Virus record (IMG/VR): IMGVR_UViG_3300025674_000177
Span: 1-34,302 of that record
Strand: one strand, 5' to 3'
From: a virus
DNA: 34,302 nucleotides
Shown here: positions 3,969 through 34,302 of the stretch, one piece after another
Position numbering within the stretch: the stretch's first letter is position 1
How the letters are laid out: the number at the start of each line of letters is the position of its first letter
Notes under the pieces: model-generated
Told to the model about the DNA's origin: nothing
What the model saw: the letters and a program-made list of their open reading frames with translations, nothing else
The model's database searches: none
Position numbers and translations under genes: made by a program

Positions 3969-4268
3969 ATGACAGAATTAACGACTAAACTTCTCAAGGA
4001 AGCCATGGATAGATTATATAAAGAGGTCACCGATCATAATTCGCAAGGAAAAGCTAAATGGAAAAAAACTAAAGAAGGATATAAATATTCTAGGAAGCAC
4101 TTGGTTTTTATTAAAAATGGTAGTACCTTTTCAGAGTTGAAATTTACGATTAAAGTAATGAGTAATTTTTGCGAGATTTTTGGCTTTAAAAACTTTTGGC
4201 AATTAAAACATTATAACCCTAAATTAGCTGTTGCGGCTCTTAAAATTATTGAAGATTATGATAATTGA
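3969..4268 (+). CDS. Small basic protein of unknown function
   Basis: 99 residues, Lys-rich. MTELTTKLLKEAMDRLYKEV is an N-terminal helix; the middle KKTKEGYKYSRKHLVFIKNG looks strand-forming. It overlaps the start of the RusA-like gene by 11 bases. No domain recognised. Confidence 0.65.
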   Translation: MTELTTKLLKEAMDRLYKEVTDHNSQGKAKWKKTKEGYKYSRKHLVFIKNGSTFSELKFTIKVMSNFCEIFGFKNFWQLKHYNPKLAVAALKIIEDYDN

Positions 4269-23607: not shown

Positions 23608-23636
23608 AGGTTATGTAAAATTAGTTTAAAAGTCAA
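23608..23636 (-). promoter_or_regulatory. Late-type promoter before portal gene
   Basis: On the - strand TTGACT (23636-23631), 17-base spacer, TAACCT (23613-23608). The 28-base core is the same as at 11735-11763. The gap between terminase and portal (56 bases) holds only this element and a TATTATTATATAATAA stretch. Confidence 0.65.
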
Positions 23637-23637
23637 G

Positions 23638-25095
23638 TTATTCATAATTAATAACTTTTTTGTTTTTTCTTATCTGATGAGGATTAAAGTTGTCCCAAAA
23701 ATCCTTTCCTGGGTCTGGTACAGCTTCTTTAATATCTATCGTTATTGGTCTTGCCATACAAATATATCTTAAAACATCCAATAAATGATCCTCCAAGCTT
23801 GTGTCTAAATCTTCTGGCTTCGTTTTATCATACTGCATTATCGGTAAAGTTCTAATTAGACTCTTGCAACCCTCTGTTATGTAGATTAGAGGTTTACCAT
23901 CTCTACCTGTCAGCCTGCTTCTTATCTGTTGCCAGCCTGCAACCCTTTTATTATCTGCTCTTTCATAAATACAACCATATTTTGCCAATTCTTCGGCTTG
24001 AGTCATTCCCATGTTCTTTTTACTCTCATCAAATATTGCAGGATCAGCAACTTGTTTATTCATTACTTCGTTATCTTGCATTTGCATCGTGTTTTTTGCT
24101 ATTTCTGGCAATTCCATTTTCAAGCCTTTGTTAGGCTTCCCTGTCCATCCGTAATATTCTCTATAAATTATTAATGAGTCTCTAGGGAAAGATATATGTT
24201 TACCACCTATATTTATAAGACTTCCGTCACTTATAGCACCCCATAACACACCAAAAGGGGCGGAATATCCCCAGTCAAAACCTCTGATTTTATACCAATC
24301 GTGGGGGATTTCAAAATCTTTTACAATATGAATATCTTTATTGAAAGTATCAAAATAAGCTCCCTCAATAGCATCCCAATCCCCATCAAGCATTGCTTTT
24401 GCTAATGCACCACCTAAACCAAGTAATTTATGCTTATAAAGTGGATCATTTTCTGTCATGGTCGGATTATCTTCTAATTTGGCAGGAATAAATTGTCTTG
24501 TCATTCCTCCCTCTTCGTCCGACATTTGATAGATTTCTAAAGGATTTTTGTTGTCTATAAATTCACTTTTAACGAATTCATGCCCTACCCCTCCAGGATT
24601 CGAACCGCAAACTATTCTTGGTAAAGCACCGAACAAACCTTCTGGAATTTGTAAACCACCAATACGAACCCTACCTCTTAGAAATTTATAAATATACTCG
24701 CTAAAATGTGTCAATTCATCTATTAGCAATACATTAATTTCTACACCTTGATATTTGATTACATCTTTTTCATGTTGGCAATGGCATAGATGAATTTTTG
24801 CACCATTCCAAAAAGTTATTTGAGCAGTAGAATAGTTAATTGAAGCTAGGTTCTTGTTTACCATTTCAGATAATATCTGCACAAATCCACTTGATCCGTC
24901 TAAATGGTTCTTTTTCAAATCTTCTGATAATCTTCTAAATAGATAAATTTGTATATTAGGTACTTTTAAAGCATAAGCTAATGCTAAAACTCTCATGCAA
25001 TGAGATTTGCCACCACCAGCAGCACCACCGTATAAGATTTCTGTTGCTGTACTGGTAAAACAGGTTGATTGTCGAGGGTGCAAGTCAAATTTCAT
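23638..25095 (-). CDS. terL: Terminase large subunit
   Basis: 485 residues. Walker A YGGAAGGGKSH (22-32), Walker B NVLLIDELTH (121-130), then RIVCGSNPGGVGHEFV, which contains the coupling motif region. The nuclease half has IRGFDWGYSAPFGVLWGAIS (first catalytic Asp), QVADPAIFDESKK, and near the end SLEDHLLDVLRYICMARP. Packages DNA into the prohead using ATP and cuts the concatemer. Headful versus site-specific cutting cannot be told from sequence alone. Starts by ATGA overlap with the gene before. Confidence 0.93.
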   Translation of the reverse strand: MKFDLHPRQSTCFTSTATEILYGGAAGGGKSHCMRVLALAYALKVPNIQIYLFRRLSEDLKKNHLDGSSGFVQILSEMVNKNLASINYSTAQITFWNGAKIHLCHCQHEKDVIKYQGVEINVLLIDELTHFSEYIYKFLRGRVRIGGLQIPEGLFGALPRIVCGSNPGGVGHEFVKSEFIDNKNPLEIYQMSDEEGGMTRQFIPAKLEDNPTMTENDPLYKHKLLGLGGALAKAMLDGDWDAIEGAYFDTFNKDIHIVKDFEIPHDWYKIRGFDWGYSAPFGVLWGAISDGSLINIGGKHISFPRDSLIIYREYYGWTGKPNKGLKMELPEIAKNTMQMQDNEVMNKQVADPAIFDESKKNMGMTQAEELAKYGCIYERADNKRVAGWQQIRSRLTGRDGKPLIYITEGCKSLIRTLPIMQYDKTKPEDLDTSLEDHLLDVLRYICMARPITIDIKEAVPDPGKDFWDNFNPHQIRKNKKVINYE

Positions 25096-26527: not shown

Positions 26528-26959
26528 TTATTTTGATTGTGGTTTTACTTGTTTAAAATCCTCTCTTTTTTTAATAACATCAGTCCATTTGCCTTTGCCA
26601 AAGTAATAAGGATTTAAAAAATAAGCTGACTCTATATCTTTAATAATTACTTTAGCTTTTATTAACTTTGATATATATTGGTTTATAGTGTTTAATTGTT
26701 GCCCTAATCTTTCTGCTATCTTTCTTCTTCTGCCTGCTGTTAATAATATTTCATTATCATAATTAGTATATCTAAATAATTCTTGAATTACTTTATCTAA
26801 TCCATTCGGCAAGCTTGTTATGTCTTGTAGGTCTTTTATATAGATTTTTATATATGAATCCTCTTGAGGTATTTTATAGGTGTGTGTTTTTTCACTTTTT
26901 ATAATTTCTCCTGTTTCTTGGTTTAATGTTTCCATTTGTGATTTATATATGTGTTTCAT
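26528..26959 (-). CDS. RepL-like winged-helix protein
   Basis: 143 residues. The second half, NEILLTAGRRRKIAERLGQQ, then LNTINQYISKLIKAKVIIKD, then AYFLNPYYFGKGKWTDVIKK, is the winged HTH with the N-P-[YE]-x-FGKG-W ending of RepL-type plasmid and phage replication proteins. RepL drives lytic replication in some phages and plasmid replication in others. Here it sits far from the helicase, behind its own near-consensus promoter, so it may be a second initiator, a copy-control factor, or a transcription factor that reuses the fold. Confidence 0.65.
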   Translation of the reverse strand: MKHIYKSQMETLNQETGEIIKSEKTHTYKIPQEDSYIKIYIKDLQDITSLPNGLDKVIQELFRYTNYDNEILLTAGRRRKIAERLGQQLNTINQYISKLIKAKVIIKDIESAYFLNPYYFGKGKWTDVIKKREDFKQVKPQSK

Positions 26960-30793: not shown

Positions 30794-30825
30794 AGTTTTT
30801 TTAATTTAAGTTAATTATATATTTA

Positions 30826-30853
30826 AGTTTATAATGTAGAATGTTAAAGTCAA
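30826..30853 (-). promoter_or_regulatory. Early promoter cassette before the gene at 30793
   Basis: On the - strand TTGACTTTAACATTCTACAT and then TATAAACTTA: TTGACT (30853-30848), 16-base spacer, TAAACT (30831-30826). Almost identical to the junction promoters. Confidence 0.7.
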
Positions 30854-31317
30854 GCATAAATATTAAAATATTTTCTTTTTATTGCGATTTTTTTACCCAC
30901 GAGATAAATCTCATCTTCATATTCAACTGTTGTCTCGTTTATATATCTTCCATGCTTTGGTTGTTCTTTGTGGATAATTTTTAATGATCCAGCTTCGGAA
31001 ATTCTGCAATTTGTGTTAAATTTTTCTCTTAAAGTCTGCATTACTTCATATGCTTTTCTTTTTGTGTAGATTGCAATTCGTGTAATTTTTAATTTCTTTT
31101 CTGCATTTGCTTTTAAAATGCGATCTCTATTTTTTTTATAATATTCTTTTTTCTTTCTTGCTATTTCAGATTTATTTTTTATATAATATTCGCTTTTTTT
31201 TCTTATTACTTTTTCTTTGTTTTCTTCGTAATATTTTTTGCCATATTCTTTTAATCTTGTTTCGTTTTTTTTTCTATATTCTTTGTAGTACTCTTTTTTT
31301 TCTTCTTTTGTTTTCAT
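30850..31317 (-). CDS. Lys/Tyr/Glu-repeat protein, possible nuclease relative
   Basis: 155 residues. Residues 1-75 consist of imperfect repeats of the type EYYKKNKDRI/KKKEYYKKNRDRI, making a charged helix. The second half has strand-forming ITRIAIYTKRKAYEVMQTLR and KKIAIKRKYF. The repeat helix is the same as the N-terminus of many phage HNH or NUMOD-type nucleases and homing-type proteins, but no HNH Cys/His cluster is seen here, so the catalytic part is missing or different. Confidence 0.55.
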   Translation of the reverse strand: MKTKEEKKEYYKEYRKKNETRLKEYGKKYYEENKEKVIRKKSEYYIKNKSEIARKKKEYYKKNRDRILKANAEKKLKITRIAIYTKRKAYEVMQTLREKFNTNCRISEAGSLKIIHKEQPKHGRYINETTVEYEDEIYLVGKKIAIKRKYFNIYA

Positions 31318-31397: not shown

Positions 31398-32690
31398 TTA
31401 ATTTATTTCTAAAAATCTTCCAAAATTACCTTGAATCATCACATTTGAAACCCCAGTTCGTCCATGCCTATTCTTAGCAATTATTATTTTTCCAGCATCT
31501 GAAAAATATCCGTCCTCCTTATCTTCATTCCTATCTCTATGTAGTATCATGGCAACGTCTGCATCTTCTTCTATACCTCCGCTGCTTTTGAAGTCATTAA
31601 TTGTTGGTTCTTGATTACTTCCTTCAACTGCTTTTCTGTTAATTTGTGCAAGTGCTAAAATTGGAATATCAAATTGTTTTGCTATTGATTTTAAAGCTGT
31701 TGTGTTCTCTTTTATTATTAAAGACTCGTTCTTATTTCTAGTGTCCTCACCTTTCATAATCTGGATATAATCCACAACTACCAAGTCTACTGGTTGTTTG
31801 TCTATCTGATTTTTAATAATTTGTTTTATTTGTGTTATATTTAGTCCAGAAGAGTCATTGACATATATTTTCATATTTCTCAATTCTTCTTTAGCCTCCT
31901 GCAAATCTGCTACTTCGGATTGGTTTAGGCATTTTTTCTGAATCTTCCAATTATCAATAGACTTCATGTTTGACAAGAATTTATACATTACATTTCTTTT
32001 ATCTACTTCTAACGAGATAAAGAGGCATCTTTTACCTGATCGACTTGCATTTAATATAATATTTTGCCCTATTGTCGTTTTGCCGACGGAAGGTCTTGCC
32101 CCTATAATATAAAGCTGTTTTGCATAAAGTCCGCCATTTATAAGATTGTCTAATTTAGAAAATCCTGTTTCGACAAATTTATCACTCAAGCCCTCTGCAT
32201 CTTCTTTGTCAAGATCGTCAAGAATGTCAGAAGTGCATTGCGTTTGTTTTTTAGGTTCTTGAAATTCTAATCCTGCAATTTTATTCTGGAAGTCTGATGA
32301 TAAATAGTTAAAACTTTTTTCTTGTAATTCGTTTTTACAATTTTCTATTAACTCGTAAAACTCTCTTTTTTGCCATAATTCAATTAATGTTTTGGCATAA
32401 CTTCTTAAATCAGCAACTCCATTTGCTAATTGCATTAATATCATTAAGTATTTAGAGCCTCCCAAGTCTTTAAATATCGTATTGTTTTGCATAAAATTTT
32501 TAAGTGTGACAGGATCAGCAGTTCCTCCCTCTCTTCCAATGCGAATAAACTCCTTCCAAATTTCTTGATGTTCGATATAAGAAAAATGCTTTGATTCTAA
32601 AATATCAGCTACATTTAATAACAAGCTGTTATTCATTATTGCAGTTCCTAAAATAATTTGCTCTGCTTCTTGATTTTCGTAAATAGTCAT
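31398..32690 (-). CDS. dnaB: DnaB-type replicative helicase
   Basis: 430 residues. N-terminal helical domain 1-120 with EQIILGTAIMNNSLLLNVAD. RecA-like domain: Walker A GARPSVGKTT (197-206), an LEVD site following strand RCLFISLEV, Walker B VDLVVVDYIQIM (301-312), LALAQINRK (about 345-353) and the arginine-finger region KNRHGRTG near 405-412. Unwinds DNA at the fork and would recruit host polymerase. The preceding gene with a DUF6291-type N-terminus fits a helicase loader or initiator. It is 2 bases from that gene. Confidence 0.93.
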   Translation of the reverse strand: MTIYENQEAEQIILGTAIMNNSLLLNVADILESKHFSYIEHQEIWKEFIRIGREGGTADPVTLKNFMQNNTIFKDLGGSKYLMILMQLANGVADLRSYAKTLIELWQKREFYELIENCKNELQEKSFNYLSSDFQNKIAGLEFQEPKKQTQCTSDILDDLDKEDAEGLSDKFVETGFSKLDNLINGGLYAKQLYIIGARPSVGKTTIGQNIILNASRSGKRCLFISLEVDKRNVMYKFLSNMKSIDNWKIQKKCLNQSEVADLQEAKEELRNMKIYVNDSSGLNITQIKQIIKNQIDKQPVDLVVVDYIQIMKGEDTRNKNESLIIKENTTALKSIAKQFDIPILALAQINRKAVEGSNQEPTINDFKSSGGIEEDADVAMILHRDRNEDKEDGYFSDAGKIIIAKNRHGRTGVSNVMIQGNFGRFLEIN

Positions 32691-32692
32691 AA

Positions 32693-33475
32693 TTAAAAAT
32701 TGTATTCTAACCCATTAACCCCTAATTCTTTTTTTAAAGAATTTAATATCTTTTCTTTAAAATCATTAGAAAATGAATTATATTTATAAAAATTATCTTT
32801 GGTCATAAATAACTTTGCTTTATTTGACCGTGTGACCTCTATTTTATTTATTAATGTGTCATTCATCATTTTATTGATTAAATCGACTGTGTGTTGCTCT
32901 CTGTTTGATTCTGATTGATTATATTCATCTTTCCAGCACTCTTGATTTAACCATGTCGCAGGATATTTCCAGAATTGACTGTCTTTCGATCTATTTTTAA
33001 TATAGCTATCTAATCCTGCCATGATATTCTCAAAGCTGTCTTTCTTTAATGCTGTCTTGAGTTTATTTTTAACATCACTAGGACTTTTCTTTTTTCCGTA
33101 TCTATTATAAAATTCTTCAAATTGTTCATTCAATACATTTTCATTCTTCATTATACATTCTACATTTACATTTTCATTTACATTGCCTTCTGTTTTGCTT
33201 TCATCTTGCTTATTTTTTGCTTCTGGTTTGCTTATTTTTTGCTTCTGTTTTGGTTTTGTTCCGTTTATATATTTCTTATTATTAGCTTCTAATTGAGGCT
33301 TGATTAATGTAAATATTGTTTTAGATAATCCAGATAATTCAACCTCTTTAAAATTAAGAGAATACTCAGCTATTGCATTGTAAATTTCTAATTGATTTTC
33401 GTTTGGAAGTTCTTTTATTGCTTCGTAAAATGATCTGTAAAAGATATAACTATCTCTAGTATTTTGATGTGTCAT
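32693..33475 (-). CDS. DUF6291-type replication protein (initiator or helicase-loader-like)
   Basis: 260 residues. Residues 10-75 (FYRSFYEAIKELPNENQLEI, then YNAIAEYSLNFKEVELSG, then ANNKKYINGTKPK) match the DUF6291 domain of phage replication proteins. A charged linker (75-115) leads to EEFYNRYGKKKSPSDVKNKL and KYPATWLNQECWKDEY, as seen in phage proteins that precede DnaB helicases. Likely binds origin DNA and loads the helicase. Its start codon lies inside a repeat that can pair with its leader, see the leader at 33476. Confidence 0.75.
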   Translation of the reverse strand: MTHQNTRDSYIFYRSFYEAIKELPNENQLEIYNAIAEYSLNFKEVELSGLSKTIFTLIKPQLEANNKKYINGTKPKQKQKISKPEAKNKQDESKTEGNVNENVNVECIMKNENVLNEQFEEFYNRYGKKKSPSDVKNKLKTALKKDSFENIMAGLDSYIKNRSKDSQFWKYPATWLNQECWKDEYNQSESNREQHTVDLINKMMNDTLINKIEVTRSNKAKLFMTKDNFYKYNSFSNDFKEKILNSLKKELGVNGLEYNF

Positions 33476-33649
33476 TGAACCTTGTATAATATGGGCGAGG
33501 GGCGAGGTTCAAAACACCCCTCATAATAATAAACTGTCTTTATATTGAACCTAAGACAAAATCAGGGAGGTTGCTCCCGATATGTCAGTACCAACCTCGC
33601 CCTATAAAATATAGTATTTATTAAATAATTTTAAAAGTCAAGTAATTAT
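33476..33649 (-). promoter_or_regulatory. Structured leader of the replication gene
   Basis: 174 bases without a gene. On the - strand GGGCGAGGTT is missing as a local hairpin arm but AACCTCGCCC (33509-33500) pairs with GGGCGAGGTT (33602-33593) over 10 bases. Inside is a GGGAG/CTCCC hairpin (33578-33574, 33569-33565). TGAACC (33511-33506) can instead pair with GGTTCA at 33551-33546 or at 33481-33476, the last touching the ATG. AGGTTCAAT occurs twice (33552-33544 and 33482-33474). A TTGACT (33641-33636) may be the promoter -35. Candidate cis-regulatory RNA or origin element. Confidence 0.55.
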
Positions 33650-33946: not shown

Positions 33947-33976
33947 AGCTTTTTATTTAAGTTAATTATTTAACTA

Positions 33977-34004
33977 ACTTTACAATGTAAAATGTTAAAA
34001 TCAA
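33977..34004 (-). promoter_or_regulatory. Leftward early promoter
   Basis: On the - strand TTGATT (34004-33999), 16-base spacer, TAAAGT (33982-33977) in the same cassette TTTTAACATTTTACATTGTA as the rightward promoter. The two promoters face away from each other across the junction, about 400 bases apart once the overlap is removed. Confidence 0.7.
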
Positions 34005-34019
34005 GAAAGAAGTCCTTTT

Positions 34020-34043: not shown

Positions 34044-34064
34044 AACAAAGATAACTGCAAAGAT

Positions 34065-34302
34065 CAGGAGGAGGAAAACTAAAACCTCCCCCCTTCAATC
34101 ATGCAACTTTTGAGGGTGCTGTAATTAACTTAAATCAAAGATGAGATACACCCTCATGGGGAAATGAAAACCCCCAAAAATATTTTAATATAATAAAAAT
34201 TAATTTGCAAATAATACTTGACTTTAACATTTTACATTGTAAACTTAGTTAAGTAATCAACTTAAATATCTTAAATATGTTAAACAAACTAACAAAAAAA
34301 AT
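34065..34302. repeat. Right copy of terminal direct repeat
   Basis: Second copy of the block at 1-242, 4 bases shorter overall. It includes the TTGACT/TAAACT promoter and the ATG at 34277 of the gene that is complete at 217-378, so the window wraps around. The GGAGGAGG/CCTCCTCC stem of the left copy is interrupted here (CCTCCCCC). Confidence 0.9.

Follow-up and report, generated by a model that had tools for sequence, protein, structure and literature searches.

A candidate cis-acting RNA switch in the replication-operon leader of an uncultured phage family

Results

The window, by which we mean the whole 34,302-nucleotide stretch of DNA that was analysed, is an IMG/VR virus record from an uncultured phage whose host is probably a Bacteroidota bacterium. 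The minus strand carries a rep gene followed by the gene of a DnaB-like replicative helicase, and the leader of this rep-dnaB operon occupies positions 33475–33602 (128 nt), with the rep ATG at 33475–33473. The features are listed below, the genes first and then the leader in the direction of transcription.

32693–33475, minus strand: Rep gene, the gene that would be controlled; DUF6291 N-domain, remainder replication-initiator-like (Pfam PF19808, 5e-19; phrog_270, 2e-16)
31398–32690, minus strand: DnaB-like replicative helicase, second gene of the operon (Pfam DnaB_C, 4e-64)
33613–33641, minus strand: candidate promoter, TTGACT - 17 nt - AATACT, directly 5′ of the leader; a consensus match that is at chance level by itself
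33559–33602, minus strand: insert-specific 5′ element of 44 nt (GGGCGAGGTT...CGGGAGCAACCTCCC...); the leading 10 nt can pair with the H2 loop and 3′ arm
33536–33557, minus strand: hairpin H1, stem GTCTT / AAGAC, 12-nt loop; the stem is present in every leader with 4–5 bp
33545–33552, minus strand: copy 1 of AGGTTCAA, putative start-region decoy in the H1 loop; covaries with the anti-element in types A and B/C, with a G-U in L072
33497–33522, minus strand: hairpin H2, GAGGGGTG / CGCCCCTC, 10-nt loop; 8–9 bp in all leaders, with compensatory changes
33505–33512, minus strand: anti-element TTGAACCT, positions 3–10 of the H2 loop; 8/8 complementary to copy 1 and copy 3
33483–33496, minus strand: linker of 14 nt (putative pseudoknot loop 3); 13–14 nt long in both types
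33475–33482, minus strand: copy 3 of AGGTTCAA; covers a Shine-Dalgarno-like AGG and the A of the rep AUG
33456–33524, minus strand: possible uORF of 22 codons; begins at the base of H2 and overlaps the rep start out of frame

The first-pass annotation of this DNA had described GGTTCA copies, one of them at the ATG, that could pair with the same TGAACC, and all of these are present on the minus strand. The TGAACC can be extended to 8 nt, giving the anti-element TTGAACCT, which is complementary to two copies of AGGTTCAA, one upstream and the other over the rep start. There are three occurrences of AGGTTCAA in the 34 kb, all within the leader region. A direct repeat over the start region, also described earlier, is found as AGGTTCAAT, whose copies end at 33544 and 33474, with the second overlapping the rep ATG, and the inner hairpin of that description is likewise present.

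H1 is weak (-2 to -3 kcal/mol). We considered H1 and its T-run as a transcription terminator and rejected this because the stem is too weak, and a second match in the window (23618–23671) proved to be shared promoter sequence and not a second switch. The 45 nt 5′ of H1 are 93–98% conserved in insert-free relatives despite divergence further upstream, and the conserved GTCT of H1 could in part be a reflection of the promoter.

About 20 IMG/VR contigs, obtained with Rep, DnaB, the upstream 98-aa protein, the promoter pattern and the leader pattern as queries, served as relatives, and their leaders fall into two types. Type A comprises the window, L014, L015, L016 and L062, and type B comprises L005–L008 and L010–L013, with L017 as its variant C. 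The two layouts are given below.

Type A: GTCTT AGGTTCAA TATA AAGAC ... GAGGGGTG TT TTGAACCT CGCCCCTC - 14 nt - AGGTTCAATG
Type B/C: GTCT GGACTGAT AATA AGAC ... GGAAGTGAG AA ATCAGTCC CTCACTTCC - 13 nt - GGACTGATG

The letters of the three elements differ between the types, and within each type the 8-nt complementarity occurs twice. Little is invariant between A and B except the GTCT...AGAC stem, the T-rich linker and the ATGs, but the geometry is common to both: the H1 loop, which holds copy 1, has 12 nt, the H2 loop is 10 nt long, the anti-element is offset by 2 and lies flush with the 3′ arm (gap 0), and the linker is 14 or 13 nt. The distance from the first base of H1 to the ATG is 81 nt in L014, L015, L062, L005, L010 and L017, 82 nt in the core of the window and 83 nt in L016, and thus stays within 81–83 nt over all rep leaders.

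The leader is also exchanged as a module. Between L014 and L017 the flanks (the upstream gene, the promoter and the first 180 nt of rep) are 96–98% identical, whereas the leaders are only 60% alike, against a mean of 47% and a maximum of 57% for shuffled sequences. This slight excess of similarity suggests that types A and B may be remote homologues that diverged under a pairing constraint. Conversely, L014 and L015 have identical leaders and different Rep N-domains, and each leader type occurs with each of the two Rep N-domain types. Leader A also precedes another Rep (L016) and a PDDEXK-like gene (L062).

The type A H1 and H2 also lie ahead of a different small gene (66 aa) in L072, L073 and L074, where the start-site copy is absent; given these loci, H1 and H2 may serve some purpose as a pair, independently of the start-site copy. 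The upstream ATG of the possible uORF is 49 nt from the rep ATG in types A, B and C and 61 nt away, in the same frame, in L072. Codon changes in this uORF between B and C are mostly non-synonymous, and we regard it as no more than a possible trigger; its translation would melt H2.

The same leader was not found 5′ of DUF6291 genes in Bacteroidota genomes and prophages (L018–L020, L068–L070). Searches of INPHARED phages returned chance matches to Vibrio portal genes and not the leader, and searches of PLSDB plasmids for the leader and of GTDB genomes for the type A pattern gave none; in 396 genomes of one bacterial order, type B gave short T-rich chance matches only.

The first-pass annotation had named an absence of covariation in homologues as grounds for abandoning a switch, and covariation is what we observe. 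Between A and B, copy 1, the anti-element and copy 3 all change together at 5 of 8 positions, and 3 of the 8 H2 pairs compared are changed on both sides. Between B and C (L005 versus L017), H2 has one compensatory change from U-A to C-G and one change from G-C to G-U. In the leaders that have the element concerned, a standard pair is present at every position of H1, H2, copy 1:anti-element and copy 3:anti-element. MAFFT failed to align A and B structurally, so these pairs were counted on a hand-made structural alignment, which is biased towards the structure, and with two diverged leader types and seven distinct sequences the sample holds few independent events. Three one-sided changes were seen, one in L017 and two in L072. 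H1 and copy 1 of L072–L074 carry two changes, and in L072 the one in the H1 stem turns an A-U into a G-U. Read on the mRNA strand, every one-sided change gives a G-U pair, which is what a sense RNA would show.

An arrangement of 8-nt copy, anti-element and copy at the ATG arose by chance in 4 of 20,000 shuffles of the type A leader and in 5 of 20,000 of the type B leader. When the window and the loci fetched by then were scanned for such triple repeats at 7 nt, no other start codon had one except in L042, a longer-spaced match, and in L043, where the repeats are coding.

As for stability relative to shuffled sequences, the other check proposed beforehand, the 128-nt leader folds at -42.9 kcal/mol with z = -3.55, and 1 of 200 shuffles was as good; the segment 33460–33615 gives z = -2.89. 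For insert-free leaders alone, z is about -1.0 to -2.7 and mostly unexceptional, and for this reason the case for a switch rests on covariation and geometry and not on stability. In these insert-free leaders the predicted probability of H2 is 0.95–0.99 and that of an open loop is 0.94–0.97. Cognate pairings of the anti-element are computed at -8.9 and -11.0 kcal/mol, in contrast to -0.1 and -1.5 kcal/mol for cross-type pairings. The pseudoknot and decoy states are estimated as equal, at -21.6 kcal/mol each for A and -22.7 kcal/mol each for B, but because the pseudoknot energies include a fixed penalty of 9.6 kcal/mol, which is a rough constant, our claim is limited to "bistable within error."

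The first-pass annotation had placed a 10-base GC-rich stem at the centre of the structure. This stem exists, with GGGCGAGGTT (33593–33602) and AACCTCGCCC (33500–33509) complementary at 10/10 positions on the minus strand, but it does not belong to the conserved core, as most relatives are without the insert. The insert of about 50 nt is found only in the window phage, its near-identical contigs and L062, and the element differs between the window and L062 at 1 position in 44 nt. The GC stem is thus a second, lineage-specific layer added to the conserved core. For the window, the nested fold with the insert (-42.9 kcal/mol) and the estimated pseudoknot state (-44.9 kcal/mol) lie no more than about 2 kcal/mol apart, and in this nested fold the anti-element is predicted to be held by copy 1 with the start open.

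Discussion

We propose, with a probability of roughly 65%, that the leader is a cis-acting RNA switch for the translation of rep and hence of the rep-dnaB operon. In this model, H2 would present the 8-nt anti-start sequence in its loop. Pairing of the anti-element with copy 3 would form a pseudoknot that masks the Shine-Dalgarno-like AGG and the start codon, which would be the OFF state. Judged by known pseudoknot geometry, the layout is that of a classical H-type pseudoknot, with a first stem of 8–9 bp, a 2-nt loop 1, directly abutting stems, a second stem of 8 bp and a loop 3 of 13–14 nt. Copy 1, in the loop of the weak H1, would be a decoy of the start site that is transcribed first, and by holding the H2 loop it would leave the start open, which would be the ON state. 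A full 8-bp loop-loop pairing with both hairpins intact looks sterically awkward in this model because both zero-length junctions lie at one helix end, and about 6 bp would be more realistic. As the two states are about equally stable, the outcome could be set by the order of folding, by ribosomes (including those that would translate the small uORF through H2) or by a trans-acting partner. Where the insert is present, in the window and L062, it would add a further route that pulls the anti-element and the H2 3′ arm off the start.

The elements, their covariation, the geometry shared by the two types and the modular exchange are all observed. We infer from them that the pseudoknot forms in cells, that it represses rep and that copy 1 relieves this repression, and we likewise infer switching itself and a role in timing. 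The earlier proposal of mutually exclusive pairings that gate the start therefore keeps its principle, given the covariation and the same geometry in two types, but the central switch is now placed in the competition between an H2 loop:start pseudoknot and an upstream decoy. The probable Bacteroidota host may depend little on Shine-Dalgarno pairing, which counts against the model.

Control in trans is a possible reading as well, though an unlikely one. Here H2, released or within other transcripts, would act as a specificity module that pairs with H1 and the rep start of same-type mRNAs, limiting replication and giving type-specific immunity or incompatibility like P4 CI or P1/P7 C4 RNA, and this would be compatible with a cis switch. 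Such a module would explain the changed letters between the types, which lack cross-pairing and are swapped as a discrete segment within the 96–98% identical flanks, as if specificity were selected; however, many parts of these genomes undergo mosaic exchange, and a leader swap is therefore no proof of selection for specificity. The layout is P4-like in having an antisense segment between two complementary copies in a replication-operon transcript (PMC4825925), and C4 loops target ribosome-binding sites with loop bases that set specificity (PMC5320573), but the sequence past H2 gives no sign of a processing site, a terminator or a stable small RNA. The search for terminator-like sites, which is blind to Rho-dependent ones, had no match immediately 3′ of H2. 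A phage-plasmid would be consistent with the presence of RepL-like and HTH_3 repressor-like genes and the lack of an integrase among the tested proteins, although a temperate life style of this phage is only a possibility. More doubtful still is the extension in which the leader cassettes would be RNA-only immunity or incompatibility types of a Bacteroidota phage family (possibly of phage-plasmids), such that the H2 loop of one type silences incoming or sister replication genes of the same type, with A and B/C mutually blind through the re-lettering of all three segments.

The remaining readings are considerably weaker than either cis or trans control by the leader itself. The H1 and H2 loops could be the targets of an antisense RNA from the opposite strand, on the model of the I-complex, ColE1 and R1 plasmids; systems of this kind typically have diversified loops, IncK1/IncK2 being an example (PMC10724649). 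Promoter-like matches are present on the plus strand, but promoter matches are at chance number (8 versus 6.6 expected). A pure antisense target does not require H1 and H2 to be complementary to each other or to the start, and the one-sided changes suit the mRNA strand, whereas read on the opposite strand they would give A-C mismatches. We consider this reading improbable. Direct repeats that adjoin a replication gene might instead be double-stranded DNA sites, either origin iterons or operators, for Rep or a repressor; binding sites of an origin were the alternative offered by the first-pass annotation. A Rep-bound iteron would follow Rep, and the leader does not: the repeat sequence does not track Rep specificity, as leader and Rep N-domain types reassort freely and leader A stands before the L016 Rep and the L062 PDDEXK-like gene. 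In addition, there are only three sites in 34 kb, they are always in hairpin loops whose stems are kept by compensatory changes, one copy is inverted and one is fused to the ATG, which makes DNA sites rather less probable again. Finally, a pseudoknot over a start resembles small translational riboswitches, a likeness that supports a ligand-sensing riboswitch or a protein-sensing leader element. The absence of an Rfam match and of conservation in the loops and linkers between types, hence of a conserved pocket, argues against such an element, and we hold it to be the least probable of all.

Self-pairing leader RNAs that control phage replication are known from a few enterobacterial phages and plasmids. 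A search of the whole window against Rfam at the gathering score gave no match, C4 included, and our literature search found nothing on DUF6291 or on this combination of features. The leader of the window shares with P4 immunity (CI RNA, seqA/seqC) an antisense segment between two complementary copies in the leader of a replication operon (PMC4825925). It differs in that CI RNA is processed, stable and trans-acting and causes premature transcription termination, while here one copy covers the rep start codon, and there is no sequence relation. With the C4 RNA of P1 and P7 it has in common an antisense loop from a phage transcript, a ribosome-binding site as target and a specificity set by the loop (PMC5320573). 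C4 is about 77 nt long with three stems and is cut out by RNase P, whereas the conserved core here consists of two small hairpins. We know of no counterpart for the decoy copy in its own hairpin.

In the rep leaders of the I-complex (ColIb-P9, IncB, IncK), a hairpin loop controls rep translation by pairing with a downstream segment near the rep start, and the loop bases vary between compatible groups (PMC10724649; the part played by the pseudoknot comes from literature cited there). The present leader could likewise pair a loop with a segment beside the rep start, and the 8/8 complementarity is kept in A, B and C. In the I-complex the pseudoknot activates rep and an opposite-strand RNAI blocks it, whereas in the present leader it would cover the start, with a competitor encoded in cis. 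Two exclusive folds also decide access to the start in timP and similar type I toxin mRNAs, although the gene is of another kind and the pseudoknot there is the active form (PMC11228461). By analogy, the leader would work like known leader switches and P4-type RNA control, with the decoy hairpin for the start codon as a distinct arrangement.

A switch of this kind would place the same three-segment logic, in a device of 81 nt, in uncultured phages of probable Bacteroidota hosts. The two re-lettered versions amount to a natural compensatory-mutation experiment. The device is small enough for a single reporter, so that RNA-based timing or immunity in these phages could be put to a direct test.

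Other features of the genomes

In L062, a second copy of the rep promoter (4091–4230) precedes about 100 nt that contain no obvious gene, as well as a strong GC hairpin, and this region may encode a small RNA. Upstream of 1311 in L069, a Bacteroidetes MAG, a long GTCGGGCA...TGCCCGAC hairpin and then a T-rich stretch lie 5′ of a DUF6291 gene, resembling an unrelated attenuator.

Within the window, a 52-nt sequence is repeated in both orientations (about 75–92% alike) upstream of genes, at 33954–34005, 34217–34268, 30799–30854 and 763–835. It is probably a repeated early phage promoter, diverging around a terminator-like hairpin pair at 34062–34160. The ends carry an inexact terminal repeat of about 238 nt (1–242 and 34065–34302, about 97% identical), which suggests that the genome is circular or terminally redundant and that a mixed population went into its assembly. 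No integrase was found among the tested proteins of the window, and a gene for a RepL-like plasmid replication protein lies at 26528–26959 (Pfam, 6e-10); from its gene content, the phage is possibly a phage-plasmid. At 846–1292, 18-bp tandem repeats code for a YdcK-type beta-solenoid protein.
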